The notes below the pieces were generated by a model that was not told where the DNA came from, ran no database searches, and saw only the letters and a program-made list of their open reading frames with translations. From Planctomycetota bacterium (GTDB lineage: Bacteria; Planctomycetota; Planctomycetia; Pirellulales; Pirellulaceae), in contig JAPLNL010000115.1 in NCBI GenBank assembly GCA_026692905.1, positions 29,172-65,264 of the forward strand: a stretch of 36,093 bases of DNA, in the 5' to 3' direction. Position numbers and translations under genes: made by a program. Of this stretch, positions 1-29,474 are shown piece after piece. Within the stretch, counting starts at the first letter, position 1. Every line of letters begins with the position of its first letter.

Positions 1-90
1 GACGAGAACGGATCCGACGAGAACGGATCCGACGAGAACGGATCCGACGAGAACGGATCCGACGAGAACGGCTCCGACGAGAACGGCTCC
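1..90 (+). repeat. 15-bp tandem repeat encoding DENGS, six units
   Basis: Six head-to-tail copies of a 15-base unit beginning GACGAGAACGG fill bases 1-90. The first four are identical and end GATCC; units five and six end GCTCC, which keeps Ser. A degenerate seventh unit (DGTGT) follows. The array runs off the left edge, so the copy number is a minimum. It is in frame with the coding region that ends at 654 and gives an acidic Asp/Glu/Asn/Gly/Ser linker that could bind calcium. Confidence 0.95.
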
Positions 91-654
91 GACGGCACAG
101 GGACAGATGAGGACTTCGCCATCCGGATTATCGTTTGCGATGGGGTTTACTACTATGGGGACGGAATGGAGCCTCGGTCAGATGAATCTTTATCGAACAA
201 TGGTCTGAGCGATGGAGAGCCTGGAGAAGAATCTGTCCAAGGTGGCGTTCCCTTGCGAATGCACAACGAAGCAATGCCCGCCGATGTGGATGGGGATAGT
301 AGGCTGACGCCACTCGATGCTTTGGTGCTCATCAATCTGCTCAATACGCGCGGCAGTGGGCAGGTAAGCAGTTTTGCCCCTTCGCAAGAATCGCCGGATC
401 GTTCCTCCGCGGGGAAGATGTTCATTGATACCAATAACGACAGCTTCCTGAGTCCGCTTGACGTTTTGATGGTCATCAACCAACTCAATGTTCAGATGCC
501 AGAAAACGCGAGAGGAACAAGCGTTGGGGAGGGAGAAGCGGATCGCAAGGATGCAGTATTTGCAACGGCGATAGACTGGACTTTCTTCTCGGGGGAAGAT
601 GAAGAAGATGAGTCGGGCCTGTTCGGCGATGTTCATTTGCTGAGTAGGATCTAA
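1..654 (+). CDS. Dockerin-type surface protein, C-terminal fragment
   Basis: The reading frame is open from the first base to the TAA at 652-654, so the gene starts outside the window. An in-frame ATG at 166 exists, but the Asp-rich repeat before it reads in the same frame, so 166 is unlikely to be the real start. The visible protein has a DENGS repeat (six units), an acidic linker, then two dockerin-like calcium-binding segments: one around bases 280-350 (DVDGDSRLTPLDALVLINLL) and one around 418-490 (DTNNDSFLSPLDVLMVINQL). Both have the D-x-D/N-x-D pattern followed by an xPLDxLxxINxL helix. In planctomycetes such pairs usually end very large LEPR-XLL/cadherin surface proteins, and dockerins bind cohesins. 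A cohesin-like protein lies at 13034-14206, but pairing between them is only a guess. The tail is acidic (EDEEDESG). Confidence 0.8.
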   Translation, partial: DENGSDENGSDENGSDENGSDENGSDENGSDGTGTDEDFAIRIIVCDGVYYYGDGMEPRSDESLSNNGLSDGEPGEESVQGGVPLRMHNEAMPADVDGDSRLTPLDALVLINLLNTRGSGQVSSFAPSQESPDRSSAGKMFIDTNNDSFLSPLDVLMVINQLNVQMPENARGTSVGEGEADRKDAVFATAIDWTFFSGEDEEDESGLFGDVHLLSRI

Positions 655-8382: not shown

Positions 8383-8790
8383 CTCGCTCTGGCGTTGGAA
8401 AAGACAACGAAAAAGCTTTGTTTGCGACGACTCGCTAGAATCTGGACTTCCTTGCTGCCCCTGAAATTTTCCCGATTATCGCCAAGGCAGGGTTCCCAAT
8501 CCCTGGACCTCTTGGTGGAGTCGGTTCATAATCCATACTCAGCATACGTTACGGATTGGGTCGAATTTACGGGTTACGAGATTTATCCCGACTTCTCTCA
8601 AAGTTAGTTCGAAACAAACTTTTTCGTTTGCTGACTTGGGCGTGAAGTTGACGTAGGCTTCGCCCATACCCACCTCCCTGTCGCCATCCACCCCTCTTCT
8701 TGGTTTGCATTGTGGCGGTTGGTTTGACGCCGAATCTGTCTTGAATTGGTAGTTTGGAAGTATCGTTTACAACCTTCTTGGAACAATCTA
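8383..8790. other. Intergenic region, no gene recognised
   Basis: About 400 bases lie between the two metalloprotease-like genes. Short frames here have no signal peptide, domain or ribosome-binding site and are not called. GGGCG near 8639 and CGCCC near 8662 could pair weakly. It presumably holds the promoter of the downstream gene, but no clear boxes were seen. Confidence 0.5.
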
Positions 8791-11700
8791 ATGAAACTGG
8801 ATCGTCGAATTGTGATGCGAACTCTGTCGCTGCTTGCGGCGTTTGGAGCGAGCTTCGTGCAGTGGCAAGTTGTTTCGGCACAAGATGCCGCGGCCGTACC
8901 CGTACCTGAGTATCCTCCTTTTGAAAAGGTTACGGAAGGATTTGTCAAAGCGGATTCCAAGTCTCCGGACAAGCAGTCACTTTGTGGCATTTGGACCCGC
9001 GAAAAAGATGGACAAATGCTTTTGGAACTGCCAAAAGACTTTGCTTCCAAAAAATACTTCATCGCGCTGACTGTCAGTAGTGGCGACAAATATGCTGGCC
9101 TTCAGTCGAACGATTTTTATGTTTACTGGCGACAATACAACAAGCGTCTCGCGTTGATCGTCCCGAACATGGACATTCGGTCCAACGGTGAGCCAGAATC
9201 GAAGGCATCGGTTAAACGTCTGTTTACGGATACTGTCCTCTTGGATGTTCCGATCCTGACCATGGGGGCCCGTGGGGGCGGACCTGTGATCGACGCAGAT
9301 GCGTTCTTCGTCGGGAATGCGTCTAAGTTCTTTGGCCCCTCCGTTCGAGTCCAAGATCTCCAGTTGATCAAAATTGCCAAAGCCAAGTCGTTTAGCAAGA
9401 ACGCGGAGGTTGCGTTCGAAGTTGTGGCGGCTGGTGGAAAGCTACAGACGCTCCACTTCTCCTTCAGCGAAGTACCTGAAGAGAACGGCTATCGACCACG
9501 CAAAGCAGATCAGCGGGTCGGTTACTTTTTGACGAACTATTCGGATTTGGGCAGTTACGATGAAGACAAGAAGCTCGTTCGCTATGTCACGCGATGGCGT
9601 CTAGAAAAGCGCGATCCTAGCCTTAAGATCAGTCCGCCCGTAAAGCCGATTCGATTCTACATTGAGCACACCACACCGGTTCGTTATCGCCGATGGGTCA
9701 AGCAAGGCATCGAATACTGGAACAAGGCATTTGAGCAAATCGGTTTTTCCGACGCAGTAGAGGTGTTCTACCAGGACGCCAAGACGGGCGACAACATGGA
9801 CCTTGATCCAGAAGACGTTCAGTACAACTTCGTTCGTTGGCTCAACAATGATATCGGCACGGCCATCGGTCCAAGCCGCGTTCATCCGCTGACAGGCGAA
9901 ATCCTAGATGCCGACATTATTTTGACAGACGGGTGGATTCGTCACTTCAATTTCCAATACCATGACTTGATGCCTGATCTTGCTATGGAAGGAATGAGCG
10001 CCGAGACGGTTTCGTGGCTGGGATCGCATCCAAACTGGGATCCGCGATTGCGACTTGCACCGAACTCGAATCGAGATCACTTGAAGAATTACTTTTCTAA
10101 CCAATCGAAGCTTCCATTTGGCGGCCATCCGCTGACCAAAGTGGATACTGCATTGCTTGGCGATCAACCCTTCGACGGCCTTGTGGGTAGAACCAGCCAA
10201 GTGAACGGTTACTGTAGCGCTGCGGTAGGCAAGCAGATGGACATGGGAATGGCTCGTTTGGCTTTCGATCTGTTTGACGACGAAGGCAACTTGCCAACTC
10301 AAGAGCCTGCAAAGAAAGAGGAACCAAAGCCCGAAGAGCCGAAAAAGGTAGAAGGCGTTAAGGAAGAGCCAAAGAAGGAAGAGCCCAAGGTTGAGGAGAA
10401 GAAACCTGAAGCGAAAAAACCCGAGAAGGCCAAAGAAAACCTTTTGGATGGTATGCCCGAAGCGTTCATCGGACCGCTCTTGGCTGAATTGGTCGCACAC
10501 GAGTGCGGACATACGCTCGGTTTAAGGCACAATTTCAAGGCTTCTAGTATCCACACGCTAAAGGAAATCAATTCCGAAGCGGTCAAGGGCAAGAAGACGG
10601 TAGCTGCTTCGGTAATGGATTATTTGCCTATCAACATGCCGTACCAAATCGAAGGCGGAATCCAGGGCGATTACACGATGACTGGCATTGGCCCGTACGA
10701 CTTTTGGGCGATTGAGTATGGTTACACGCCAGAGGAAGCGAAACTCGCTGAGATTCTCAAGCGAACAGGCGAACCTGAATTGCAGTACGCAACGGACGAA
10801 GATACCGGTGGGCCGGATCCATTGGCACGGCGTTATGACTACAGCAAAGACCCATTGGATTACACCGAGAATCAGATGCGGTTGGTCAAGTTGTATCGTT
10901 CGCGATTGCTCGACAAGTTCGTGAAGGACGGCGAAAGCTGGGGTAAAGCGCGAAAGGGTTACGAACTAACTCTTGGCGAGCAAATGAAGTCCGTCAGCAT
11001 GATGGCCAATTGGGTTGGCGGTGCTTTTGTTAATCGCGATAAAAAGGGTGATCCAGGCAACCGCCGATCGCTCGTTCCTGTGCCTGCTGATCAACAGAGA
11101 CGTGCGCTGGCTTTTGTTTTCCAGAATGCTTTCCGAGATGATGCGTTTGGTATCACTCAGCCAATTCTGGAGCGATTGACCAATGACAAGTGGATTGACG
11201 AAGGAATGCGTTCGATGGGTGAGTCGACATTCCCAATTCACGATCGAATCCTTGGTTACCAAGCTTCGACGTTGACGATGTTAATGAACCCGAGTACTCT
11301 ACGTCGCGTTTTTGACAACGAGACGCTAGTGCCTGCTGACCAGGATGCCGTTACTCTTCCTGAGTTGATGGACAAGCTTTATGCTGAAATTTGGTCTGAG
11401 TTGGATGCCAAGCCCGAAGGCGAAGTCACTGCTCGAAAGCCTCGAATCAGTTCTTGGCGTCGCAATTTGCAACGTGAGCATTTGGAGCGTTTGATCGACT
11501 TGGCTATTCCAAGCGATTCGAATGCGATCTCCAAGCCTGTCAAGGCACTTGCCCTGATGCAGTTGAAAGAGCTAAAGCGAAAGTTGGACGCGACCTTGGA
11601 AGGTCGAAACAGTTTGGATTCCTACTCGCTAGCTCATTTGGCGGAAGCTCAAACACGGATTGTGAAAGCGATCGATGCGATCTACGTCTACAACATGCCG

Positions 11701-11796
11701 ACCAGTTTCGGCGGCGGTGGCGGTTCATTTCTTCTTTTTGGTCAAGAAGGACAACCGATCCAGGCCAAGGAAGTTCCAGAACCAGACATGCCGTAG
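8791..11796 (+). CDS. Zinc-dependent metalloprotease, DUF5117/DUF4953 (met-zincin) family
   Basis: A 1001-residue exported protease. The ATG at 8791 gives a signal peptide (RTLSLLAAFGASFVQWQVVSA, then QDAA); an in-frame TTG at 8746 would only add residues ahead of it. The N-terminal portion matches the DUF5118/DUF5117 arrangement: LLELPKDFASKKYFIALTVS, then VGYFLTNYSDL, RWRLEKRDPSLKISPPVKPI and a YRRWVKQGIEYWNKAFEQIG helix. The DUF4953 region holds the metzincin zinc site HECGHTLGLRH (H570, E571, H574, H580), with SVMDY near 609 as the likely Met-turn. An unusual Lys/Glu/Pro-rich stretch (about residues 504-551) lies just before the zinc site. The family is common in Bacteroidetes and Planctomycetes; the role is extracellular proteolysis, substrate unknown. 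A strong terminator follows. Confidence 0.9.
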   Translation: MKLDRRIVMRTLSLLAAFGASFVQWQVVSAQDAAAVPVPEYPPFEKVTEGFVKADSKSPDKQSLCGIWTREKDGQMLLELPKDFASKKYFIALTVSSGDKYAGLQSNDFYVYWRQYNKRLALIVPNMDIRSNGEPESKASVKRLFTDTVLLDVPILTMGARGGGPVIDADAFFVGNASKFFGPSVRVQDLQLIKIAKAKSFSKNAEVAFEVVAAGGKLQTLHFSFSEVPEENGYRPRKADQRVGYFLTNYSDLGSYDEDKKLVRYVTRWRLEKRDPSLKISPPVKPIRFYIEHTTPVRYRRWVKQGIEYWNKAFEQIGFSDAVEVFYQDAKTGDNMDLDPEDVQYNFVRWLNNDIGTAIGPSRVHPLTGEILDADIILTDGWIRHFNFQYHDLMPDLAMEGMSAETVSWLGSHPNWDPRLRLAPNSNRDHLKNYFSNQSKLPFGGHPLTKVDTALLGDQPFDGLVGRTSQVNGYCSAAVGKQMDMGMARLAFDLFDDEGNLPTQEPAKKEEPKPEEPKKVEGVKEEPKKEEPKVEEKKPEAKKPEKAKENLLDGMPEAFIGPLLAELVAHECGHTLGLRHNFKASSIHTLKEINSEAVKGKKTVAASVMDYLPINMPYQIEGGIQGDYTMTGIGPYDFWAIEYGYTPEEAKLAEILKRTGEPELQYATDEDTGGPDPLARRYDYSKDPLDYTENQMRLVKLYRSRLLDKFVKDGESWGKARKGYELTLGEQMKSVSMMANWVGGAFVNRDKKGDPGNRRSLVPVPADQQRRALAFVFQNAFRDDAFGITQPILERLTNDKWIDEGMRSMGESTFPIHDRILGYQASTLTMLMNPSTLRRVFDNETLVPADQDAVTLPELMDKLYAEIWSELDAKPEGEVTARKPRISSWRRNLQREHLERLIDLAIPSDSNAISKPVKALALMQLKELKRKLDATLEGRNSLDSYSLAHLAEAQTRIVKAIDAIYVYNMPTSFGGGGGSFLLFGQEGQPIQAKEVPEPDMP

Positions 11797-11855: not shown

Positions 11856-12057
11856 GTTTTCCCGTTGGTATCCAAGAGGTGGAAAACCCCAAGAGTTCCT
11901 GGATTGCAACGAGGTGTTGACATCCTTATCGCTCGTAAAAGTTATGCTCATTCTCGTTGCTTCGAAGCCTTGATCCAAGCCCTGACCCTTTAGCGGACTT
12001 GCGCACCGGTTCACTTCGCTGCTTGAACTGTGGCGACGCTTTTCCATTTTTCCAAGC

Positions 12058-12939
12058 TCACCGATAGAGCGGGCTGCCTGGTGCTAGGTAGCGTTGCCAA
12101 CCGCCTGTGTTGGCTGTTTGGTAAGGATAGTTCTGCGCAGAGGTGGTGCCGTAATTCGAGCCAGTGTGGTAACCATTGGAGTTGAAGGCGGTCGAACCAG
12201 TTCCGTTGCCGAACAAAGACTGCTGCGGAGGGTATGGTTCATAGGCACTGTAGGGATTGTTGCGTGCACCCGAGTAGCTGCTCAACTGGTAGGCTGAGTT
12301 CGGCTGGTAGTTTACGCCATTGTTCGCATAGAGGCCTGAGCCAGACGAAGCTGCCGAGTAACCGGAATGGGCTTGAGCAACGTAGTTTGCTGGGTTTGGC
12401 CAGGCGATCTGATTCTGCTGATAGGTTGTTTGTACAGGCTGTTGGTACTGCTGATAGTTTTGTTGCGCCGCGAGATTTTGTGACTGAGGATATGACTGAA
12501 GATTAGTTTGTTGTCCGAAACTTTGTTGGCTAAAACCTGTCTGCGCGCTGGGTTGATTGTAGCTGAATTGCGGCGTTGCTTGATATGCGTTTTGCCCGGC
12601 AGGAAATGCTTGTGACAGAATGGGCTGACTTGAATAGGCTTGGGAGTCGTTCGATAGTAAATAAGAAGGATTGTAGGCAGCTTGTGTAGAGAGTAGCTGC
12701 TGTGTGAACGCACCGAGTTGGCTCGTGTTATGCGTTGGGGGATACTCTGAGTAACCGGATGCTGGTCGACTTTGGTAAGCTGATAAATAGGGATCGGTTG
12801 CGGCGGAAAATTTGGTTTGGCTAGGTGTAAGAAGGCTTGTAAAGAGGCCTGGCTGCAAACCGAAGAGGCCGAGCGCCATGAACCCGAGTTCCGCCCAATA
12901 CGTTTTTGTTTGCCGTTTCTGGCGAGCAAAGTGAGCCAT
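12058..12939 (-). CDS. Q/Y/N/S-rich low-complexity (prion-like) exported protein
   Basis: I do not recognise a family. The best start is the ATG at 12939-12937 because AAGGA sits about 8 bases upstream; an in-frame ATG at 12981 is possible. The 293-residue product has a short basic N-terminus (ARQKRQTK), one hydrophobic segment (about residues 14-35: AELGFMALGLFGLQPGLFTSLL) that could be a signal or anchor, and then about 250 residues of almost uninterrupted Gln, Tyr, Ser, Asn, Ala, Gly and Pro, with recurring QNYQQYQQP-, SYNQPSAQ- and YSAY-type words and no Cys. This composition resembles prion-like or amyloid-forming, phase-separating or matrix proteins. It lies 94 bp downstream of the cohesin/SdrD_B-like gene on the same strand, so co-expression and a cell-surface role are plausible but inferred. 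Confidence 0.75.
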   Translation of the reverse strand: MAHFARQKRQTKTYWAELGFMALGLFGLQPGLFTSLLTPSQTKFSAATDPYLSAYQSRPASGYSEYPPTHNTSQLGAFTQQLLSTQAAYNPSYLLSNDSQAYSSQPILSQAFPAGQNAYQATPQFSYNQPSAQTGFSQQSFGQQTNLQSYPQSQNLAAQQNYQQYQQPVQTTYQQNQIAWPNPANYVAQAHSGYSAASSGSGLYANNGVNYQPNSAYQLSSYSGARNNPYSAYEPYPPQQSLFGNGTGSTAFNSNGYHTGSNYGTTSAQNYPYQTANTGGWQRYLAPGSPLYR

Positions 12940-13033
12940 CCCGTTTTTCCTTCCCTTGTTGGGGACCATACTCGAAGTCACCCCTCAACGAATAGAGCAA
13001 TCCGTCTCGGAAGGATAAAATATTATTGCGAGG

Positions 13034-14206
13034 CTACTCAAAGGATGATGTAGTCGAGATCACGTTATCGATGAGTTCGGCATTGCCCTTGGCTTTGGTG
13101 CGTTTCGTCAATTGTGGAACCGACAAAGATGCAGGCTGAGCGGCTGGGATTTTGCTTTCGACGCGCTGGTTTCCTTCGCCCTCACCTTGTGAAACAGCCG
13201 GTGCACTCAATGATGACAGGGACTGTAATTGGTTGACGGCCGGATTGTTGGGGCTCAATTGCGCTCCAGATGGATCTGTAGAAAGTGAATTCAAAGCTGG
13301 AGTGGAGTCTGCAGTCTGGGAGCTTTGGGCAATACTGTTTTGCCAGTTGGTAGATCCGACTGGCATGACGAGTGTAGTGAGAAGTCGATTGCTAATAAAT
13401 GCAGGCTTAATCGCAATCTCACGAAAATTTTGATTCGTCAGAATCTGGTTTGAGGTCACGGAAATGACCAATTGATTTTGGCCTCCATCGACGAAGGCAT
13501 TCGGATGGGCTTGCTCAATTCGAAAGTTGCCTGCGGCGAGATTTGCAAATTGATAACTACCATCCGCGGCCGTTGTTGTAACCAGCTTATTTCCTGTGCT
13601 AACGTCTACGAGAGTGACTTGGCAACCCGAAATTCCTTCGAACGAACTAACCAAAGAATCCTGATTGGAATCTGCATACACAAATCCTGTTATCTGCGCA
13701 GCCAAATCCGTGGTAGGTGAAGAGACCGTGATGGAACCATCCGTAGAGTCTATCCCTGCGATGGGAAGTGGAGTCACAGCAATTGCTCCTTCGTTAAGTC
13801 GTACTTCAGTAAGGTCGATTTTCGAAACGATTCCGGCGGATGCTCCGGATCGAACGACAAAACCAAACTGCACGAGGGAGGCATTGGATGCTGTCAGGGC
13901 CGTTGACGCGTTCAAGAAGACGACAGCCACCCCAGTCGTCTGATTAACATTGGTGGTGATCTGCGTATCCGTAGCAGAACTCCAGGCGGAGCCTGCGGTT
14001 ACATTTTCTTGGGAGAGGGTTAAAACAGTCGGGTCGTAATGGATACGAATCGTTGCCGCACGTACGCCAAGGGCGCTATCGATCGATACCGGAGCGGCGA
14101 CCAATGCACCAACTTGGCCGCTCAAGTTTCCTGAAAAGCCGACTGCGGCCAAGAGCTGACGACTCTCAAGCTGTTCCAAAGCAAATCGTTTTCGAGTCGG
14201 TTTCAT
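13034..14206 (-). CDS. LEPR-XLL-like surface protein with cohesin and SdrD_B-like domains
   Basis: A 390-residue protein. Near the N-terminus is LEQLESRQLLA (residues 10-20), a variant of the LEPR-XLL motif found at the start of many large planctomycete exported proteins. Residues about 22-160 form a cohesin-like beta-sandwich (GQVGALVAAPVSIDSA, IRIHYDPTVLTLS, VQFGFVVRSGAS). Residues about 168-265 resemble the SdrD_B/Cna-B fold (ITGFVYADSNQDSLVSSFEG, then TTAADGSYQFANLAAGNFRI). The C-terminal about 120 residues are Ser/Pro/Gln-rich and probably disordered. It is divergent from the cadherin-repeat gene at 14582 and is followed on the same strand by the Q/Y-rich protein. Cohesins bind dockerins; dockerin-like segments occur at 1-654 and 14582-17593, so self-assembly on the cell surface is possible but untested. 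Confidence 0.8.
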   Translation of the reverse strand: MKPTRKRFALEQLESRQLLAAVGFSGNLSGQVGALVAAPVSIDSALGVRAATIRIHYDPTVLTLSQENVTAGSAWSSATDTQITTNVNQTTGVAVVFLNASTALTASNASLVQFGFVVRSGASAGIVSKIDLTEVRLNEGAIAVTPLPIAGIDSTDGSITVSSPTTDLAAQITGFVYADSNQDSLVSSFEGISGCQVTLVDVSTGNKLVTTTAADGSYQFANLAAGNFRIEQAHPNAFVDGGQNQLVISVTSNQILTNQNFREIAIKPAFISNRLLTTLVMPVGSTNWQNSIAQSSQTADSTPALNSLSTDPSGAQLSPNNPAVNQLQSLSSLSAPAVSQGEGEGNQRVESKIPAAQPASLSVPQLTKRTKAKGNAELIDNVISTTSSFE

Positions 14207-14581
14207 AGCGAAATCTCATTCAAAGGGAGCGGAGCTGAACTTAGGACCATTCATTCGATTCGAATCCTATTTGTCTGCCTATTCGATATCGGCTGATCGC
14301 AAATGTTTCCTGAGGAAGGAACCATTTTGTATTTTCCAGCAACGAAAGGAAGCGATCCAGTGTGTTTACGTATCTCAAAAACAATGTCAGAATGGGAGGG
14401 TTGGGTTTTTTCTTCCTATAAAACAGGTTGTTTGTTGCCAATTCGTGTTTCTTCTTAAAATTTCGCTCCCTCGAAGAGTCTGTGACTGTGTTTTTGCTGA
14501 TTAACATTCGGGGGATACGTCGCTTTTTCGTTTTGCCCACTGTTTTAGCAAGCAAATTAAGCCTTCCGCTGAAAGCCTAAG
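14207..14581. other. Divergent intergenic region between two surface-protein genes
   Basis: About 375 bases separate the starts of the cohesin-like gene (minus) and the cadherin-repeat gene (plus). It must carry both promoters unless the genes are read from far away. I found no convincing -35/-10, sigma-54 or operator pattern and no coding region with domain support. Confidence 0.5.
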
Positions 14582-17500
14582 ATGTCACAAGTTTTACGAA
14601 TCCGAAATTGGCTCTCTTCAGTCCAACGCGCATTGTTACGAGATAGGCTTGCAAAAGACATTTGCTCGACTTCGGTTCGAAATGGGCTGAGGCTTGAAAA
14701 ACTCGAGGATCGAGAATTGATGGCAGTTGCGGTCAGCAGTTTTTCTCCGACACCAAGTGGTTTCACTGCTCAGTTCACGGAAGAAATCCGCGTCGGAAAT
14801 CTCAATCTGTTTGATGCACAAAATGGAGCTCTTGGAGCTGCTGACGTGACACTGCGAGGCAATTCGACCGGCGACATCAAGGGTTCATTGGTGATAAACG
14901 GGACAAGCCTTTCGTTTGTTGCTACGGGTGGTACGCTCGCACCGGATACTTATACAGCGATTCTCAAGAGTGGTGCAAATGCGATCGTCGATGCTGCTGT
15001 CGGGCAACTTCTCGACGGTGAGAATAGCGGCACACTTCCGTCGGGCAACGGCACACCTGGCGGCGATTTCTCGTCTACCTTCACAGTCACATCGTCGTCT
15101 CTAGTGGTTAGCCTGCCTGACTTCGCTCGGGGGCCGACGCAGACCGTGAACGTTCCTGCGGTAGGGAGCGGACAATCGCCTCAAACAGGGCTCCCGATTC
15201 GGCTTAGCAACGCTCAAGGGGTCACGTCAATGACTCTGACGCTTGCATTCGACTCCAGTCTCTTGAATGTGTCCGAGGTTAAGCTTGGTCGAAACGCACC
15301 TACGGGCAGCCAAGTACAATCCAATCTAACCGTACCCGGCCAGGCAACAATCTCGTTCTTTGCTCTCGCCCCGCTAGCTAGCGGTGCAGCCGACATCATC
15401 GAATTGGTCGCAACAGTTCCATCCGGAGCCACCTACGGGAAAACTCAGATAATCCGTCTTCAAAATCTCGAAGTCAACTCAGGGGCATTGCAAGCGAGAG
15501 CTGACGATGCTGTTCATGTCGTTGCTTATTCGGGAGATGCAAATGGCAATCGCCGATATGACGCTGAAGACGCACGCTTGATTGCACGTGTCGGTGTCGG
15601 ACTTGACTCTGGCTTCGTTTTAGCAGACCCATCGGGCACCGTGAACAGCTCCGCGGCGCGTATATTCCCGTTAACAGATCCCTTGGTTATTGGCGACGTG
15701 ACTGGTCAGGATGGGCTAAGCCCGCTCGACGCAAGTGACGTACTTCGCAGAGTTGCTGGACTTCCAACATTGAATATTCCAGCCATACCATCATCACAAG
15801 CACCGACCGCTCTATCCATATCCAGTTCAACCGTTGCCGATAGCGTGCCCATTGGGACGACGATTGGCAGCTTCACTACAACAGATTCAGATGCAGGCGA
15901 CACTTTCACTTATAGCTTAGTTTCAGGAACCGGCGCTACCGACAATGCATCCTTTACCGTGGTCGGCAACCAGCTTCGAACAGCAATCACGCTCAATACA
16001 AGTTCGAAGAGTTCGTATTCCGTTCGCGCGCAAACCACCGATTCAACTGGCAACACATTTCAACAAATAATCACAATCACTGTTACGTCAACCAATCGTG
16101 CCCCGACCTCCATTTCGCTCAGCAACTCAACTGTTTCTGAGACTGTTTCGAGTGGAACAACTGTCGGCACCTTGTCGACGACCGATCCTGATGCTGGCGA
16201 TACCTTTGTGTACACGCTGGTTAGCGGTACGGGCAGTACCGACAATGCTTCGTTTGCCATCGTTGGCGGGCAGTTGCAGACAGCATCCGCACTTAACTTT
16301 GAAACGAAGTCGAGTTACACGGTAAGAGTGCGTAGCACCGATGGGGCGGGTTTGTTTGTCGAATCCGCCTTTGCGATAACCGTCAGCAATGTGAATGAAG
16401 CTCCCACTGTGATCGCGTTGAGCGCCAGCTCCGTGGCTGAGAACGCAGCGAGCGGAACGACTGTCGGCACCTTGTCGACGACCGATCCTGATGCTGGCGA
16501 TACCTTTGTGTACACGCTGGTTAGCGGTACGGGCAGTACCGACAATGCTTCGTTTGCCATCGTTGGCGGGCAGTTGCAGACAGCCTCCGCACTCAACTTT
16601 GAAACGAAGTCGAGTTACACGGTAAGAGTGCGTAGCACGGATGCTGGCGGATTGTTCGTGGAGGCTCCATTTGTCATTTCAGTTACCGACGTTAACGAGG
16701 TACCGACAGGTGTTGTGTTGAGCAATGCAGTTGTAAATGAGGTTGCCTCGATTGGAACGATCATTGGGTCGCTTTCGGTAGGCGATCCTGATGCTGGCGA
16801 CAACCACACATACTCGCTTGTGGCGGGTACCGGCGACGACGACAATGCGAGCTTCTCTTTAGCGGGGAGCGACCTGCAAACAGGTACGGCACTTAACGCG
16901 GCTACTCAGCCGACATACACGATTCGCGTTCGTGCAACGGATTCAGGAGGACTGTTTGTTGAGTCCGTTTTTGTGATCACGGTCAGCGATACCAATGCGG
17001 CCCCCACATCCATCGCTTTGAGCAGTAACACGGTTGCTGAGAATGTGACGAGCGGAACCACAATTGGTTCCTTTTCAACGGTCGATCCGGATGTTGGCGA
17101 TTTCCATTCCCAGTCCTTGGTTAGCGGGACCGGCGATGCCGACAACGCCTCTTTTGATATCGTGGGTGGACAGCTCCAAACTTTCTCGGCACTCGATTTT
17201 GAAACGCAATCGAGTTATACAGTTCGAGTTCGAAGCACGGATGCAGGCGGATTATTCGTTGAGAATGTCTTTGTGGTCACGGTAACGAACATCAATGAGG
17301 CGCCGACTGCGATTGGTCTTAGCAATAGCTCGGTCGTGAATAACCCTGGTACGGGTACGGTCGTCGGTCAGTTGTCTTCCACTGATCCAGATGCCGGCGA
17401 TTCACAAACGTATGGGTTGGTGTCAGGTACGGGCGACACCGACAATGCGAGCTTCGCCATCGTGGGAAATGAACTGCGCACATCAGGCCCGTTGGACTTT

Positions 17501-17593
17501 GGTTTGCAGTCGAGCTACAGCGTACGCATTCGAAGCACCGACGTTGGTGTTCTTGTTGTGGAATCGGTTTTCGTTATTACGGAAACAGTTTAG
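14582..17593 (+). CDS. LEPR-XLL-like surface adhesin with cohesin, dockerin and six cadherin-like repeats
   Basis: A 1003-residue protein. It has LEKLEDRELMA at residues 38-48 (a LEPR-XLL variant), an Ig-like region at about 52-165, and a cohesin-like domain at about 175-305 (TSMTLTLAFDSSLLNVSEVK). A dockerin-like pair follows at about 313-395 (GDANGNRRYDAEDARLIARV and GDVTGQDGLSPLDASDVLRR). From residue 407 there are six cadherin-like repeats of exactly 100 residues. Each starts with an APT-type motif and contains a DxDAGDxxTYSLVSGTG segment and DNASF, with acidic residues placed as in calcium-binding cadherin linkers. The protein ends five residues before the sixth repeat would close, without any recognisable anchor. 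It probably acts in cell-cell or cell-surface adhesion. It is divergent from another cohesin-like gene and convergent with an outer-membrane barrel gene. Confidence 0.85.
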   Translation: MSQVLRIRNWLSSVQRALLRDRLAKDICSTSVRNGLRLEKLEDRELMAVAVSSFSPTPSGFTAQFTEEIRVGNLNLFDAQNGALGAADVTLRGNSTGDIKGSLVINGTSLSFVATGGTLAPDTYTAILKSGANAIVDAAVGQLLDGENSGTLPSGNGTPGGDFSSTFTVTSSSLVVSLPDFARGPTQTVNVPAVGSGQSPQTGLPIRLSNAQGVTSMTLTLAFDSSLLNVSEVKLGRNAPTGSQVQSNLTVPGQATISFFALAPLASGAADIIELVATVPSGATYGKTQIIRLQNLEVNSGALQARADDAVHVVAYSGDANGNRRYDAEDARLIARVGVGLDSGFVLADPSGTVNSSAARIFPLTDPLVIGDVTGQDGLSPLDASDVLRRVAGLPTLNIPAIPSSQAPTALSISSSTVADSVPIGTTIGSFTTTDSDAGDTFTYSLVSGTGATDNASFTVVGNQLRTAITLNTSSKSSYSVRAQTTDSTGNTFQQIITITVTSTNRAPTSISLSNSTVSETVSSGTTVGTLSTTDPDAGDTFVYTLVSGTGSTDNASFAIVGGQLQTASALNFETKSSYTVRVRSTDGAGLFVESAFAITVSNVNEAPTVIALSASSVAENAASGTTVGTLSTTDPDAGDTFVYTLVSGTGSTDNASFAIVGGQLQTASALNFETKSSYTVRVRSTDAGGLFVEAPFVISVTDVNEVPTGVVLSNAVVNEVASIGTIIGSLSVGDPDAGDNHTYSLVAGTGDDDNASFSLAGSDLQTGTALNAATQPTYTIRVRATDSGGLFVESVFVITVSDTNAAPTSIALSSNTVAENVTSGTTIGSFSTVDPDVGDFHSQSLVSGTGDADNASFDIVGGQLQTFSALDFETQSSYTVRVRSTDAGGLFVENVFVVTVTNINEAPTAIGLSNSSVVNNPGTGTVVGQLSSTDPDAGDSQTYGLVSGTGDTDNASFAIVGNELRTSGPLDFGLQSSYSVRIRSTDVGVLVVESVFVITETV
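15800..17593 (+). repeat. Six tandem 300-bp cadherin-repeat units
   Basis: Units start at 15800, 16100, 16400, 16700, 17000 and 17300, an exact 300-base period with no net insertion or deletion. Units two and three are nearly identical at base level across 16161-16338 versus 16461-16638 (two differences noticed), while the other units are much more diverged. Confidence 0.93.
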
Positions 17594-17674
17594 CAACGGT
17601 GAACCGGAGGCCTATGGCGAGCGGCAGGACAAATTGCACCACGAATCCAACTGCGGTAGCATTTTGCCGGAGGC

Positions 17675-19060
17675 TTAAAAGCGAAAGACCAGGCCGGTCT
17701 GCAAGCCATGGATGAGCACGGCTTCTTTTTGAAACGGAAATGAGGGGTGTTGGTCGCCCGTGGGTGTCTCAGGTGGAAATTGGGACAGGTGACGGTCTAT
17801 TTGTGATTCCGATCGAACCGCGTTACTCCAATAGTGAAGATTGTAGCCAACATTGAATTGCCAATTCGTGTATAGCTGGGTTTGCAGGCGGACGGTCAAC
17901 TCGGGAATGGCTACTAATTTTCGGTCCGAATAGGTACCGACATTCGTTGTTTGCGCGAGGAGACCACCTTCGAACTCGGCGCTGCCCGCGTTGGGTACGG
18001 TATTCGTTGTGCTACCACGAATGTTGACTTTGGCTTCATTCATACCGAACGCCACCCCGGGCCGGACACTCAATACGGAAAGACCTATCCGTTCTCGATA
18101 CTCGATCCCCATAAGTCCACCGTAAAACTGGTTTCTAGCTTGGAAATGATCCGAGATCTGCTTGGTAGTCCCTACGAGAATTGGCCCCTGGCCAGTTAGA
18201 TACTGAGAAACCTGATCGATGGAAATGGTGTTGTGCAAACCGGCATACTGAGGACCGAATAGCACATCGATTTGCGATTTTGGACCGCGCATCCATCGCT
18301 CGCGAAAGAGGCCACTCACGAACTGCTGTTCAGCAGCGGCACTCACCGTAACATTGCCGCTAAGAATGTTTGGATACGCGATCAAGCTTGCGGCTTCTTG
18401 GCCGGTCGCGGAATCAAAAACGGGCCTCGCAAGAATAGGTAACTGGTCGCTCGTAAACCGATTTCGCTCGACTTGAGACGGTAGTCCCATGTAGTCGATT
18501 TCAAACCCAAGCTCATGGGAGCTGTCAAACCATCGGCCTACACCTATCTTAAATCCAGATTGCATGGAGTTTCCAAAATCCGAATCGACCAAGGACCTTG
18601 TGTTAGGAAAGCCCAAAACGCCAGCATTATTCGGCGATGTGCCCAAAGGACTAGCTGTGATCAATTCAGGAGAAGATTTATGACTTATCGACCATAGCAA
18701 GTACTCAGCGTCGACCCACAATAAACTTGACTGGGAATAGCTAGCGATTCCATCCGGTGGCTGCATGCACTCGAAGTCGTGGCTATGTTGGGCAAGAGGG
18801 GCAGGAAGGTCATTGTCAATTTGAGCGGACGAATAAGATGCGTTGATTGCGTCTGCATTTGGCTTGTTTCTGGTTTTCTGTTGACCGTGAACTGGGGAAA
18901 CCAAAATCAGGATTGCAAACAGGCAAGCCGTCAGATTTGACACCAAGGAATTGCCGATTGCCAACGGATAAGTTGGTGCTGGCTTACCATTTTCTTTTTG
19001 CGTGCTTCCTACGCCATCGTTGCGTCTTAGGAAGTACGGATTGAACCGTGAGGTGATCAT
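17675..19060 (-). CDS. BBP7-family-like outer-membrane beta-barrel protein
   Basis: A 461-residue protein from the ATG at 19060; the frame is open back to 19135, and the real start could also be a GTG or TTG close to the hydrophobic segment, so the start is uncertain. A signal-like segment (NLTACLFAILILVSPVHG) is followed by a polar linker. Then comes the family signature order: WVDAEYLLWSIS, ELITASPLGTS, GVLGFPNTRSLV and SGFKIGVGRWFDSSHELGFE. These match planctomycete BBP7 (DUF1551-type) barrels. Alternating strands continue to the end (FNVGYNLHYWSNAVRSE), and the last residue is Phe (FRF), as expected for barrel insertion. A pore or structural role in the outer membrane is inferred. The gene is convergent with the cadherin-repeat gene, with an 81-bp gap. 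Confidence 0.8.
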   Translation of the reverse strand: MITSRFNPYFLRRNDGVGSTQKENGKPAPTYPLAIGNSLVSNLTACLFAILILVSPVHGQQKTRNKPNADAINASYSSAQIDNDLPAPLAQHSHDFECMQPPDGIASYSQSSLLWVDAEYLLWSISHKSSPELITASPLGTSPNNAGVLGFPNTRSLVDSDFGNSMQSGFKIGVGRWFDSSHELGFEIDYMGLPSQVERNRFTSDQLPILARPVFDSATGQEAASLIAYPNILSGNVTVSAAAEQQFVSGLFRERWMRGPKSQIDVLFGPQYAGLHNTISIDQVSQYLTGQGPILVGTTKQISDHFQARNQFYGGLMGIEYRERIGLSVLSVRPGVAFGMNEAKVNIRGSTTNTVPNAGSAEFEGGLLAQTTNVGTYSDRKLVAIPELTVRLQTQLYTNWQFNVGYNLHYWSNAVRSESQIDRHLSQFPPETPTGDQHPSFPFQKEAVLIHGLQTGLVFRF

Positions 19061-19200
19061 TTGAATGCTAAATCTGTAGGTAGCCCCCCTACATATTCTT
19101 CTTTGAGCATCGGCTGATTCAGCCCGCAAACTCAACTCAATCTTCCTATCTTTAGCGTGATTTTGAGTCCCCCTACGACCGCAAGGGCGTGAAGTATTTT

Positions 19201-19227
19201 GTAGCGAAACTCGTCAAGAGTTTTTGG
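19201..19227 (+). repeat. Hairpin repeat, copy A (GTAGCG family)
   Basis: GTAGCG followed by AAACTC, loop GTCAA, then GAGTTT. It lies upstream of the sialidase gene and is paired with an inverted copy at 19245-19270. A third copy is at 30852-30874. Confidence 0.6.
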
Positions 19228-19244
19228 TAGTTTAGGCAATGCAG

Positions 19245-19270
19245 CCGAAAGTTTTGACGACTTTCGCTAC
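19245..19270 (-). repeat. Hairpin repeat, copy B (GTAGCG family, inverted)
   Basis: Read on the minus strand it is GTAGCG, CGAAAGT (overlapping the last CG), loop CGTCAAA, then ACTTTCG. It has the same loop core as copy A but a different stem sequence that still pairs. No other feature is seen in the remainder of 19061-19389 apart from the two copies and the ribosome-binding region of the sialidase gene. Confidence 0.6.
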
Positions 19271-19389
19271 ACAAAAGCCTGTCTTTGGCGCGAGATGTTT
19301 CACAGCGTTGCTCACCAAAGCAATTCGCTTTTTTCGAAATTGGTTGCTATTGTTAGATTTGTCTGGAGTACTTCAACGGAAAGAAATCA

Positions 19390-22254: not shown

Positions 22255-23241
22255 ATGACTGCTCGTTTTTCCTTTCCAGCCTTGATAACCGCTACCTTTT
22301 TTGGCCTTGTTTCCCTAGGAAATGCTTGGGCTGACGGGAAGGTGGACCCAAATCTTCCAGTATACAAGCCTGCTCCGGGCCTGTCCGGCCAGATCAAATC
22401 GGTCGGTTCGGACTCGATGAACAGTTTAATGACTCAATGGACCGAGAAGTTCAAGCAGTACTACAAAGGGGTTCGGACGGAAGTTGAGGGGCAAGGTTCC
22501 TCCAAGGCCATGCCGGCTCTGATCGAGGGAGCTGCTAGTTTCGGGCCTATGAGCCGCGATGCCAAAGCCAACGAAATAGCCGACTTCGAAAAGAAGTACG
22601 GTTACAAGCCCGTTCTTTTGCCAACATCGATCGATTTGCTGGCGGTTTATGTGAATCGCGACAATCCCCTGCAAAGCCTCAGCATGGAGCAAGTCGACGC
22701 GATATTTTCTAGTACTCGCAAATTGGGTAGCGAATCGATCGACAATTGGGGGCAGGTTGGGCTTAAGGGAGACTATGAAAAAGAAGCCATCGCTTTGTTT
22801 GGTCGCAATGCTGCATCGGGTACTTACGGCTTTTTCAAGGAAAAGGCTATGGGCAATGGCGACTTCCGAGACAAAGTCAACGAGCAACCGGGTAGTACTG
22901 CTGTCATCGCATCGGTGGGTGAAAATCGATTTGCAATGGGATACAGCGGTATCGGTTATAAGACCGAAGCCGTGAAAGCTCTTGCATTGGCACCGAAGAA
23001 GGGTGAACCAGCTATCGAGCCAACCGAAGAAAACGCTTACAATGGCAAGTATCCGTTGGGACGCTATTTGTTTCTGGCGGTGAATTACAAGCCAACGAGT
23101 AAGCTTGAGCCGCTTCGCAAGGAGTTCATCAAGTTTATTTTCAGCAAGGAAGGCCAAGAGATTGCTGTCAAGGATGGGTATTTTCCAGTGGATGCAAAGA
23201 CTGCGGCCAAAGCATTGAAGATGGTTGGCATCGATCCTTGA
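22255..23241 (+). CDS. pstS: Phosphate ABC transporter substrate-binding protein PstS
   Basis: A 328-residue periplasmic phosphate-binding protein, first gene of pstSCAB. The ATG at 22255 has CGGAG six bases upstream. The signal peptide is about residues 1-26 (LITATFFGLVSLGNAWA). Phosphate-binding loops are visible: SVGSDSMNSL near 49, VEGQGSSKAMPAL near 79, SFGPMSR near 95 and RNAASGTYGFF near 184. The last is the equivalent of the RxxxSGT loop of PstS proteins. It captures inorganic phosphate and delivers it to the PstC/PstA channel. A 60-bp gap separates it from pstC. Transcription probably starts within 22100-22250, possibly under a Pho-type regulator. No phoU or two-component genes are in the window. 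Confidence 0.93.
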   Translation: MTARFSFPALITATFFGLVSLGNAWADGKVDPNLPVYKPAPGLSGQIKSVGSDSMNSLMTQWTEKFKQYYKGVRTEVEGQGSSKAMPALIEGAASFGPMSRDAKANEIADFEKKYGYKPVLLPTSIDLLAVYVNRDNPLQSLSMEQVDAIFSSTRKLGSESIDNWGQVGLKGDYEKEAIALFGRNAASGTYGFFKEKAMGNGDFRDKVNEQPGSTAVIASVGENRFAMGYSGIGYKTEAVKALALAPKKGEPAIEPTEENAYNGKYPLGRYLFLAVNYKPTSKLEPLRKEFIKFIFSKEGQEIAVKDGYFPVDAKTAAKALKMVGIDP

Positions 23242-23301
23242 TCGGTACCAATCGCAGTCAGGCTTTGCCACCGATGACTCCCTACTCGTGACAAAGCACC
23301 T

Positions 23302-25968
23302 GTGAATAATTCGCAAAGACAGACGAACCGAAACCGCCGAGATCGCAATTCATCTTGGTGGGTTAGGGTTTCAGATCGCGTAGCCAAACAAGTGATTACC
23401 GTTGGTGGTGTCGGAACCATCTTGGTCGTCATGCTTGTCGTTCTTGTTTTGCTTGGCAACGTTCTGCCCCTTTTCCAAAGCAACTCGGCTACGGCATTTG
23501 CGCCGATATCCATTCGGACGGATTCTTCGAAAAATGTTGGCTCTGAGAAAGCAGCGATTGACGCAGATGGGGCAAGGCCGATAGCGGCGGGGGTTGATGA
23601 GTATGCTGAACTCCTTTGGGTGCTTCATCGCGGCGACTACTTGACGGTTCACTCCATTGCCACTGGAAAGCAGCTCAGTTCTCATCCAGCGTCGGGCGAG
23701 TCACTCGGCAATATCGAATGTTGTGCCGTTGCGGATAATGACGCCAGCATGGTGGCCGGATACTCAAATGGCTCGATCCGGCCCATTACCGTCACAATTC
23801 AAGTTGAGTTCATTCCACTGGCCAAGGTGCCAGCTGAAATCGCAACGGAACTCAAATCGGATGTCGCCTCGTCCGAAGGCGTTTTGTATCGGGCGATGGC
23901 GAGTGGTTTGGTTCGTAAGCAAGCTGTAAGCGATGTGAAGTTTCACCCGGCGGTTCCGCTTTTTCAGAAGCCGGTAACCTGCGTCGACTGGCGGAATCCG
24001 CAGGCCGCTTCTAGTTTTGACGAGTCGCAATCGTGGACTTGGGGGGCAACCGATGGCCATTCGATTGCGCTGGGAACGATCAACAATAAGGTCAACAGTT
24101 TCTCAGGGGCCATCAGTCAGGAAACAGCAACTTGGACGCATGTTTCCCAAGAGGCTGAGTCAGACAAATCTCCTTCGGTTCTTGCTCTGATGATTGGTTC
24201 TCGATCGGAGCAGGTACAAACGCTTGATACCAAAGGCAAAGTGGTTTCTTGGTTGCCTTCAGGCGAGAAAAATTTGGTTTCTGGATTGTCTCATACTTCG
24301 TTAGCTGGCTCCGAGAGCAAAGCAACGGTGGGAGTACCATTGCTTGGTCGATCTACCTTGATGATCGGTAGTCAATCGGGGTACATTGAAAGTGTCGCCA
24401 CCACAGCCACTAGCGGCGGCCAAGAGTTGTTATCGATTCATCAGTTTGGCGGCAAGGATGGTGCTATCGCTGATTTGGCGGCTTCACCAGAAAGCCGGAT
24501 CGTCGTTGCCCAATTCCAAAGTGGCAAAGGAGCCGCGTACTATGTGCCGACGAATCGCCAATTGATTTCCTGGGATGCGAAAATGGAAGGGAGCGACGGC
24601 TTCCGGCCTCGTGTTTTCTTTTCGGCGAATGCGGCCTGTGTAGGACTGGTAAACGAAACGCATGTCGATTTGTGGCGTCTGAGTGTTCCATTCCCCGAAG
24701 CGTCGTTAAGCTCATTCTTTAATCGCATTTGGTACGAGGGGTATGGATCGCCGCAACATATTTGGCAGAGCAGTACAGGAACTGTCGAAGGGGAATACAA
24801 GTTCGGCTTCTGGCCTTTGATTTTCGGGACGCTCAAGGCAACTTTCTTTTCGTTGTTGATCGGCGCCCCGATCGCATTGATGGCAGCCATCTTCGGTAGC
24901 GAGTTCATGAGTAGCCGCTGGCGTAGCCGAGTGAAGCCCGTGATTGAGTTGATGGCGAGTGTGCCCAGTGTTGTATTGGGGTTTGTAGGGGCATTGGTTC
25001 TTGCACCAATCTTGCGAGACAATTTGATGTGGGTATTGCTTTCGGTCGTTTCGATTCTCTTTTTATTCCTATTGGCGTCGCATGTTTGGCTTGTCGTTCC
25101 AGGTGGGATTGCCATTCGAATGCGACATTTTCGACTTCCTATCCTGTTTTTGCTGATCCCACTTGGGATGCTTTTGGCGAAGAATCTTGCTCGTACCGTG
25201 GAATCGGTGTTGTTTCGAGGAAACTTGATCCAATGGCTTTCCAACAATGATGGCTCAGGCTGGTCTGGATGGTTTTGCTTAGCAGTTCTGCCCGTTTCGT
25301 TGCTAGTTGCTTGGTTATTCTCGGGGCCGCTTAGCCCGCTGATCCAGACGCTATCGAAGAAGCTGAGTCCGATGCGATTTTCGTTTGTCAATCTCGGGCT
25401 GTTTGGTTGCGGAACGTTGGCTGTGCTTCTGATTTCGGCGCTGGCTGCGTGGGGTTTTACTCTGGTTGGCATGGATCCGCGAGGCTCGGTGCTTGGCCCA
25501 TATCAAGAGCGAAATGCATTATTGGTTGGGGGTATTTTAGGCTTTGCGATTATTCCGTTGATTTACACCATTTCCGAGGATGCGTTGCAATCAGTGCCTC
25601 AGCATTTGCGAAGTGCATCGTTGGGTTGTGGTGCAACGACCTGGCAGACGACGATTCGAGTGGTCGTTCCGACGGCCATGAGTGGGCTCTTTAGCGCGAT
25701 GATGATCGGCTTTGGTCGTGCGGTTGGTGAGACGATGGTGGTATTGATGGCGGCGGGCAATACGCCTGTAATGGACATCAATCCGATGAACGGCTACCGA
25801 ACGTTGTCCGCGACGCTTGCTACGGAATTGCCAGAAGCGGCTCGTGGCTCAACACACTTTCACGCCTTGTTTTTGGCTGCGTTTCTTTTGTTTTGCTTTA
25901 CGCTGGTTGCGAATACCATTGCGGAAGTCGTTCGATTGCGTTTCCGTAAGCGAGCGTATCAACTATGA
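23302..25968 (+). CDS. pstC: Phosphate ABC transporter permease PstC, enlarged with periplasmic propeller-like domain
   Basis: The protein has 888 residues, starts at a GTG and has no clear ribosome-binding site; typical PstC is about 300-320. There is one membrane helix at about 31-55. Residues about 60-480 follow as a predicted periplasmic region with WD40-like blade motifs (ELLWVLHRGDYLTVHSIATG, SMVAGYSNGSI, STLMIGSQSGYIESV, VDLWRL). The canonical permease part starts near 500 (FGFWPLIFGTLKATFFSLLI) and contains ASVPSVVLGFVGALVLAP and the EAA loop SASLGCGATTWQTTIRVVVP near 773. Between these is an insertion of about 165 residues with several extra hydrophobic helices (about 570-735). The gene overlaps pstA by 4 bases (ATGA). 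Enlarged PstC forms exist in some proteobacteria; the propeller assignment is by eye. Confidence 0.88.
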   Translation: MNNSQRQTNRNRRDRNSSWWVRVSDRVAKQVITVGGVGTILVVMLVVLVLLGNVLPLFQSNSATAFAPISIRTDSSKNVGSEKAAIDADGARPIAAGVDEYAELLWVLHRGDYLTVHSIATGKQLSSHPASGESLGNIECCAVADNDASMVAGYSNGSIRPITVTIQVEFIPLAKVPAEIATELKSDVASSEGVLYRAMASGLVRKQAVSDVKFHPAVPLFQKPVTCVDWRNPQAASSFDESQSWTWGATDGHSIALGTINNKVNSFSGAISQETATWTHVSQEAESDKSPSVLALMIGSRSEQVQTLDTKGKVVSWLPSGEKNLVSGLSHTSLAGSESKATVGVPLLGRSTLMIGSQSGYIESVATTATSGGQELLSIHQFGGKDGAIADLAASPESRIVVAQFQSGKGAAYYVPTNRQLISWDAKMEGSDGFRPRVFFSANAACVGLVNETHVDLWRLSVPFPEASLSSFFNRIWYEGYGSPQHIWQSSTGTVEGEYKFGFWPLIFGTLKATFFSLLIGAPIALMAAIFGSEFMSSRWRSRVKPVIELMASVPSVVLGFVGALVLAPILRDNLMWVLLSVVSILFLFLLASHVWLVVPGGIAIRMRHFRLPILFLLIPLGMLLAKNLARTVESVLFRGNLIQWLSNNDGSGWSGWFCLAVLPVSLLVAWLFSGPLSPLIQTLSKKLSPMRFSFVNLGLFGCGTLAVLLISALAAWGFTLVGMDPRGSVLGPYQERNALLVGGILGFAIIPLIYTISEDALQSVPQHLRSASLGCGATTWQTTIRVVVPTAMSGLFSAMMIGFGRAVGETMVVLMAAGNTPVMDINPMNGYRTLSATLATELPEAARGSTHFHALFLAAFLLFCFTLVANTIAEVVRLRFRKRAYQL

Positions 25969-28631: not shown

Positions 28632-28649
28632 AAACGCAACGATTTGATT

Positions 28650-29474
28650 ATGGACAGACTAAAAGCAATCGCAGATGGCCAACATATTGAGTCGGTTTTG
28701 CATGACGAAGTTTTGCAAGAAGACCCGGTCTTGAAAATTGTTGGTTTCAATTTGTTTTATGGTCGCAAGCAAGCGATACACAATATCTCGATGCCGATCG
28801 CACGAGGCAAGGTTACTGCGTTGATCGGCCCGAGCGGATGTGGTAAGTCGACACTGCTCCGAAGCGTGAACCGGATGAACGATTTGATCGATACGGTTCG
28901 GATCGAGGGAGATATGTTGCTGGGCGAGGACTCGATTTTTGCTCCGGGCGTAGACGTCATTCAGCTTCGCAAGAGAATGGGAATGGTGTTTCAGAAACCT
29001 AATCCGTTCCCGATGAGTATTTTCGAAAATGTTATTTATCCTCTGCGGATTGATGGCGAACGGAACAAGCAGCGGTTGATGCAAGTTTGCGAGCAGTCGT
29101 TGCGAGGTGCAGCGTTGTGGGAAGAGGTCAAAGACCGTCTTCACGAGAGTGGGCTAGGACTCTCGGGCGGCCAGCAGCAGCGGCTATGCATCGCGCGAGC
29201 GATCGCGAGCGACCCGGAGGTTTTGCTTTTGGACGAACCTTGTTCGGCTTTGGATCCGTTGGCGACTGGCAAGATCGAGGATTTGATCGAAAGGCTGAAA
29301 GGAGACTATTCGATTTTGATCGTGACGCACAACATGCAGCAAGCGTCCCGAATCAGCGATTTCACTGCGTTTATGTATCTCGGTCGATTGGTGGAGCTTG
29401 GATTGACCTCAAGGATATTTACGAAACCCAAGCTTAAGGAAACCGAAGATTACATCACGGGCCGATTTGGCTAG
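28650..29474 (+). CDS. pstB: Phosphate ABC transporter ATP-binding protein PstB
   Basis: A 274-residue cytoplasmic ATPase from the ATG at 28650 (a TTG two codons earlier is in frame), 18 bases after pstA. All nucleotide-binding motifs are intact: Walker [10 protein letters not shown] (60-68), Q-loop Q115 in [11 protein letters not shown] (typical of PstB), signature LSGGQQQRL (171-179), Walker B VLLLDEP (191-197) and switch His H227 in IVTHNM. It couples ATP hydrolysis to phosphate import through PstC/PstA. It is the last gene of the operon; phoU, which often follows pstB, is not present. The intergenic stretch 29475-29714 that follows has only a pyrimidine run (about 29680-29697) and no recognised terminator or gene. 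Confidence 0.96.

Follow-up and report, generated by a model that had tools for sequence, protein, structure and literature searches.

What is built by neighbouring genes that encode cohesin, dockerin, cadherin and outer-membrane barrel domains in a planctomycete? The question is raised by a stretch of 36,093 nucleotides (contig C115:29172-65264), here called the window, from a genome of 5.96 Mb in 148 contigs. A preliminary description had proposed a self-assembling, non-enzymatic adhesion locus of four genes at positions 12058 to 19060. Its open reading frames and domains were recovered. The gene P2 (13034-14206, minus strand) combines a cohesin with an SdrD_B domain, P3 (14582-17593, plus strand) combines a cohesin, a divergent dockerin without a Pfam match and six cadherin repeats, and the gene at 17675-19060 (minus strand) encodes a BBP7 barrel. 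P2, P3 and one BBP7 subfamily form a solid cassette that is found across 12 genera. To judge from the sequences, three to four secreted or outer-membrane proteins, which are kept together in many aquatic Planctomycetes, probably form a rod at the cell surface that serves adhesion and depends on calcium.

For the analysis of the gene neighbourhood a profile was built from five P3 heads and applied to 241 genomes of the family. At E ≤ 1e-10, 50 genomes match. They hold 37 ortholog loci in 36 genomes of 10 genera; the remaining matches score ≤ 289 bits and are mostly the same module inside other large proteins. A second search covered 396 genomes of the order and found three more orthologs, in another family, so that 40 loci from 39 genomes and 12 genera are available. 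P3 orthologs were accepted at ≥ 439 bits (37 loci) or ≥ 473 bits (the three added loci), and paralogous modules reach at most 289 bits. The thresholds were ≥ 240 bits for P2 and ≥ 290 bits for BBP7, each on a model built from five cassette members, which therefore match by construction; one protein barely passed as P2 (L105, 250 bits).

The synteny proposed as a check in the preliminary description is present, and with it a conserved gene neighbourhood. P2 is divergent from P3 and adjoins it in 35 of the 40 loci, the distance between the two being -13 to 768 bp; in the window the region common to both starts spans 14207-14581. BBP7 was found in 31 loci, 25 times downstream and convergent and six times on the P2 side. 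In 25 of the 40 loci P2 has a second small cohesin gene as its neighbour. The five loci without a divergent P2 belong to genomes that still contain a P2-type protein, on the same strand near P3 in two cases (G252 locus b and G420) and on other contigs in two more (G035, G251). The genome G262 consists of a single contig, on which about 50 kb separate P2 and a second cohesin-like match from P3 and BBP7 (G262:C1:6536094-6538056 versus 6586557-6587600); this rearrangement could show whether linkage matters. Where BBP7 is missing, the contig ends inside P3 in seven of nine loci. When 72 genomes of the family were searched for P2, matches of ≥ 90 bits came from six of them, the same six that hold a P3 ortholog, a coincidence that is uncorrected for kinship and compared with an incomplete P3 listing for genomes without a match. 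The cassette covers one planctomycete family, Pirellulaceae according to its named members, and one neighbouring family, and its distribution is patchy. Among 18 named loci, holders of the P3 head include Rhodopirellula baltica BR-MGV, R. europaea, R. rubra, R. solitaria, R. sallentina, R. maiorica, Neorhodopirellula pilleata, Stieleria sedimenti and Aporhodopirellula aestuarii.

The window protein, a putative outer-membrane beta-barrel of the cassette clade, matches BBP7 (PF07585) over the complete profile (positions 1-350 of 350, E 2.9e-91, 306.7 bits). Its reading frame is open to 19135, and the start at 19060 is the more likely one by comparison with G026, a genome of the same genus. In a BBP7 tree all 29 cassette members fall on one side of one branch (support 99/98), apart from 22 paralogs of eight genomes. 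Eight duplicate rows were dropped for this tree, 30 of 45 places with loci were used (8 cassette copies and 22 paralogs), and the cassette members L080 and L159 are absent from it. Five of the 29 members are encoded on the P2 side and still belong to the cassette clade. A specific BBP7 barrel travels with the cassette.

Such neighbours could also be kept by common descent, with no joint function. Co-linearity decays slowly in close relatives, and G026 retains the next two flanking genes as well. However, the linkage spans 12 genera, and where the gene order has changed, a specific BBP7 clade has stayed with the cassette. Of 20 window proteins compared with three loci of other genera (L031-L033, 20 kb each), none outside the cassette was matched at 1e-4. 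We regard descent alone as very improbable.

P3 is a protein of 1003 amino acids. It begins with a LEPR-XLL-type motif, which stays under the Pfam cut-off (16.5 bits when scanned alone), followed by an immunoglobulin (Ig)-like domain (14726-15091, plus strand; model residues 1-122), the cohesin (15095-15532, plus strand; model residues 124-269), the dockerin (15521-15775, plus strand) and the six cadherin repeats (15800-17590, plus strand). The cohesin is absent from the Pfam list of the whole protein and was recovered by scanning that part alone, where it reaches 42.9 bits (cut-off 24.1; 42.8 bits in the genome search). It exceeds the cut-off of PF00963 and has the cohesin fold, and can be classified as a cohesin. 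A single-sequence search of part of the head against the PDB found no cohesin and gave four chance matches. The cadherin family PF00028 matches in six stretches (E 3.4e-42, 143.2 bits), with tandem domains over the cut-off. The repeat period is 300 bp in the window and about 100 residues in five P3 proteins compared. The rod varies in length, complete open reading frames of P3 having 601 to 2707 amino acids. Repeats 2 and 3 of the window are 85% identical over 287 nucleotides; therefore the repeat number may change by recombination, or the assembly may have collapsed repeats. Names of enzymes suggested for P3 by NCBIfam, accD and others, were rejected as chance matches far below the cut-offs (31.7 versus 317 bits).

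The dockerin of P3 needs closer consideration. This part of the window protein has no match to PF00404 or any other Pfam family and thus falls outside the profile definition of a type I dockerin. A structural alignment of the head model with VIA-align returned no dockerin rows, but its rows cover mainly residues 122-272, and this absence carries no weight. A family profile of 26 rows (19 orthologs and 7 paralogous modules) gave seven sequence matches at E ≤ 1 in the PDB, all of them dockerin chains. The best one, 5m2o_B, has an E-value of 6.4e-4 for the whole sequence and only 0.22 for the best single stretch; the other six lie between 0.019 and 0.77. Conversely, PF00404 matches 12 of the 26 members at E ≤ 1 (best 8.5e-5), at least five of which are orthologs, and the profile aligns to five generic dockerins of the same genome with a probability of 82% (E 1e-5). 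The domain contains two F-hand calcium loops, separated by a variable insert and each followed by a helix (residues 280-290 and 333-343, confidently modelled by AlphaFold), as is required of a dockerin. In the 37 orthologs D1, N3 (36/37), N5 and D12 of loop 1 are kept, and loop 2 keeps D1, T/S3, S9 and D12 in all 37 with a variable position 5. Relatives of genus g10 show the canonical-looking loop GDVTGDGTLS. Each of these lines is modest; taken together with the modelled helices, they lead us to conclude that the domain is a divergent dockerin, not filed under PF00404.

Within the P3 head, conservation is also highest in the two helical parts of the dockerin: in the 37 orthologs their mean entropy is 0.41 and 0.54 bits, compared to 1.06 bits for the cohesin and 0.97 bits for the Ig domain. 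E281, R284, L285, R288, D338, L340 and R341 are invariant in the orthologs and mostly different in eight paralogous modules. The alignments used here comprised 45 modules (A2), 21 of 33 P2 proteins (A3), 26 of 45 dockerin segments (A4) and 19 of 37 orthologs (A5).

P2, a protein of secreted type, has 390 amino acids and consists of a LEPR-XLL-type N-terminus, a cohesin, an SdrD_B-like domain and a tail of low model confidence. The N-terminal match (Planc_extracel/LEPR-XLL-type) reaches 25.0 bits in the whole protein and 26.3 bits when scanned alone, the cut-off being 25.5. The cohesin (13817-14125, minus strand; PF00963, E 2.9e-12, 49.8 bits) and the SdrD_B domain (residues 171-245, 13472-13696, minus strand; PF17210, E 5.2e-10) were identified by Pfam. 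The AlphaFold2 model has a mean predicted local distance difference test (pLDDT) value of 70.4. Blocks of ten residues from 21 to 270 reach ≥ 70 except 161-170 (63), and residues 303-378 and 380-390 of the tail stay below 50. A fold search with the model matched cohesins and SdrD/UafA-type structures. At the C-terminus, W or F is the last residue in 28 of 33 P2 proteins, in many preceded by a short VDxVFAxxLW-like motif, and the region before this motif is poorly conserved; the window protein ends in SSFE (13034-13080). The motif is a possible docking or sorting signal.

The fourth gene of the preliminary description (12058-12981, minus strand; 307 amino acids, GTG start) was called prion-like, a label taken from its composition. 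The richness in Q, S, Y and N is real, Q and N making up 21.8% of the residues, and no Pfam or NCBIfam family matches at E ≤ 1. G026 has an ortholog with 61% identity, there too after P2. Beyond these two genomes no match was found among the cassette loci compared. The gene occupies the place of the second small cohesin gene, which the window and the G026 loci lack. Of the four genes, P2, P3 and BBP7 are conserved, and the Q-rich gene was found only in the source genome and one congener. Scans of 11900-19300 for promoters (2 versus 5.5 in shuffled sequences, standard deviation 2.7) and terminators (10 versus 8.6, standard deviation 2.7) gave no clear excess.

How might these proteins work together? 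P3 would be secreted and form a cadherin rod, stabilised by calcium and variable in length, that carries a rigid head of Ig, cohesin and dockerin domains. P2, together with the second small cohesin protein where it is present, would provide a cohesin in trans that clamps the highly conserved P3 dockerin, and the dedicated BBP7 barrel would sit in the outer membrane and either export the complex or hold it. The cohesin of P3 itself may be structural within the head or free for another dockerin. We infer the clamp from the gene linkage, the strict conservation of the dockerin helices and the single-cohesin genes beside the dockerin gene. P2, P3 and the two second-cohesin proteins that were scanned show no enzyme domain above the Pfam cut-offs. 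The occurrence of the three genes together across the genera points to a dedicated surface-type locus without enzymes, as the preliminary description had supposed. As a whole, this model of an enzyme-free surface-adhesion cassette, with P2 clamping P3 and BBP7 as the membrane part, is tentative and in our judgement comes close to an even chance without reaching it. Its stronger form appears possible with greater reserve. Here Pirellulaceae would possess a surface organelle of their own. A cohesin-dockerin clamp would fasten the cadherin rod, calcium-dependent and adjustable in length, to a specific outer-membrane barrel and to one or two adaptors with a single cohesin each, and the sole cargo of cohesin and dockerin would be the adhesin.

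The preliminary description had suggested another arrangement, in which P3 polymerises head to tail. One chain does hold both domains, with a cohesin fold and dockerin features. However, the cohesin (about residues 172-317) and the dockerin (314-398) are adjacent at the N-terminal end, and AlphaFold predicts the Ig-cohesin-dockerin head as a single confident arrangement (357 residues, predicted template modelling score (pTM) 0.89). Because both domains lie at this end, they cannot join rods end to end, and the head-to-tail chain is not supported. What could form is a backbone of heads, the cohesin of one chain binding the dockerin of the next, with the cadherin rods as side brushes. The small cohesin genes beside P3 would then be superfluous, and the P2 cohesin next door would be an equally good partner for the dockerin. 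This form of polymer is improbable.

Several results weigh against the clamp of P3 by P2. Position 5 of dockerin loop 2 is Q in the window protein and not acidic, and no part of the head varies more than the insert between the two loops (1.74 bits entropy). A distance correlation over 36 of the 40 loci gave no specific signal between the P3 dockerin and the P2 cohesin: the partial r of the P3 dockerin, given the Ig domain, is 0.24 with the P2 cohesin, 0.33 with the P3 cohesin and 0.32 with the P2 SdrD_B domain as control. BBP7 is absent from two loci (L104 and L158) despite more than 6 kb of flanking sequence on both sides, and within the genus a P3 ortholog occurs in only 2 of 27 genomes, including the source genome. 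The tandem of cohesin and dockerin is present in all 45 modules aligned, also within other giant proteins, and this constancy and the single modelled arrangement would fit a structure in cis equally well. The cohesin and dockerin of P3 would then pack together or serve as structural modules, and P2 and BBP7 would contact P3 in some other way. Paralogous giant proteins, whose dockerin helices are different, also contain the Ig-cohesin-dockerin tandem as one unit. The pTM indicates that the dockerin of about 80 residues is placed confidently, since by our estimate from the pTM formula a free dockerin would give less than about 0.8, and the distance correlation slightly favours the cis pair. On the other hand, residues of the dockerin helices are more strictly conserved among cassette members than among the paralogs, and this points to a partner specific to the cassette. 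Extra copies in family f8 match the Ig and cohesin part only (query 3-271), so the tandem is not obligatory. The predicted arrangement was, moreover, judged by its pTM. We consider the cis structure rather unlikely and prefer the P2-P3 clamp.

The Ig-cohesin-dockerin module was also observed inside very large open frames of up to 16321 amino acids, and one protein of 1185 amino acids combines a beta-propeller with a cohesin (two matches, one of them weak) and a dockerin. These cases come from L035 8678-12298, L036 7247-10804, L006, L008 (G015) and G260:C1:4164897.

Could the cassette cohesins instead gather the many dockerin proteins of the genome into an enzyme complex, including the one at the start of the window? 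The window opens within a protein whose dockerin is canonical (bases 280-489, PF00404 E 3.2e-10). It had been described as ending in this domain; the dockerin is confirmed, and 54 residues follow it. The source genome contains 27 dockerin matches at E ≤ 1e-4, and upstream on the same contig a protein of 2563 amino acids combines a peptidase S8 domain with a dockerin match that is weak (24.1 bits). A peptidase-carrying "planctosome" has been proposed for freshwater planctomycetes (PMC6461901). However, dockerins occur in all 27 genomes of the genus (5-43 matches each), in contrast to a Pfam cohesin at E ≤ 1e-3 in 7 of the 27 (five over the cut-off; divergent cohesins might escape) and the P3 ortholog in two. 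Four of five generic dockerins aligned have a PLDxLxxINxxN-type helix unlike that of P3. Since dockerins are found in every congener and Pfam cohesins in few, the window-start dockerin is read as unrelated, a member of a generic class that does not track cohesins, and its assignment to the cassette was rejected. An enzyme complex of this kind is quite improbable.

Some further features were noted. The window-start dockerin protein contains a 15-bp tandem repeat encoding DENGS in about 12 copies (window 1-100), and in the longer contig (L039, 9085-9266) an N inside this repeat splits the frame in two, most likely an assembly gap. Two reading frames elsewhere in the source genome have two cohesin matches each. 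A metalloprotease-type gene of the Met-zincin class (DUF4953/DUF5117) adjoins the cassette at 8746-11796 and has no match in three cassettes from other genera that were compared. Window positions 22255-29474 encode a probable phosphate-type ATP-binding cassette transport operon with a PBP-like binding protein, two unusually long permeases of 888 amino acids and an ATPase.

Planctomycetes of this kind are often attached and form rosettes, and the cassette is a concrete candidate for their attachment. It is a small syntenic set of one dockerin and two or three cohesins and occurs in the cultured species Rhodopirellula baltica and Stieleria sedimenti, so that the question of binding or of a knock-out becomes direct. 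In the main text of a stress transcriptome study of R. baltica (PMC2754498) the words "cohesin", "dockerin" and "cadherin" are absent. A description of the cassette was not found in the literature searched; the main review (Peer et al., 2009) may list some of the proteins.

Cohesins and dockerins outside cellulosomes are known, and their partners and roles there are mostly proposals. A cellulosome is built on a scaffoldin with several cohesins and a carbohydrate-binding module, and its glycoside hydrolases bear dockerins; in the source genome, four dockerin reading frames outside the window were domain-scanned, and these four had no glycoside hydrolase match at E ≤ 0.001. P2 and P3 differ from scaffoldins and anchoring cohesins: each has one cohesin and no match to a carbohydrate-binding module or an enzyme, and an outer-membrane barrel adjoins. 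The non-cellulosomal cohesins 2xdh of Archaeoglobus fulgidus and 2vo8 of Clostridium perfringens come from other organisms and, to our knowledge, differ in architecture, having neither cadherin rods nor BBP7 as a neighbour. Among the closest likenesses is the hypothetical planctosome of freshwater planctomycetes (Andrei et al., 2019; PMC6461901), which also has cohesin and dockerin in one adaptor chain, is non-cellulosomal and is proposed to be tethered outside. Its own features are a lamin-tail anchor with P-domains, HYR repeats, bound peptidases and the lineage Nemodlikiaceae. The cassette instead has cadherin repeats, SdrD_B and BBP7, and no peptidase among its proteins; HYR, lamin-tail and P-domain gave no match at E ≤ 1 in P2, P3 and BBP7, the proteins searched. 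For Cloacimonadota a cellulosome-like complex was proposed (PMC8542988). In consortia of anaerobic methanotrophic archaea and sulfate-reducing bacteria (ANME-SRB), cohesin/dockerin complexes were proposed for cell adhesion rather than polymer breakdown, with cadherin and Ig domains among the adhesins; these organisms are unrelated, and the part of the article available to us describes no comparable gene cassette (PMC10553843). Giant cadherin-like proteins of planctomycetes, tabulated for Stieleria varia (PMC7717043), resemble P3 as large, secreted-type proteins with cadherin-like, calcium-binding and putative adhesion domains. P3 differs from them by its length of 601-2707 amino acids, its cohesin-dockerin head and its recurring neighbours. 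Compared to the non-cellulosomal systems already known, what appears to be new here is that the only cargo visible in a cohesin-dockerin system is an adhesin.

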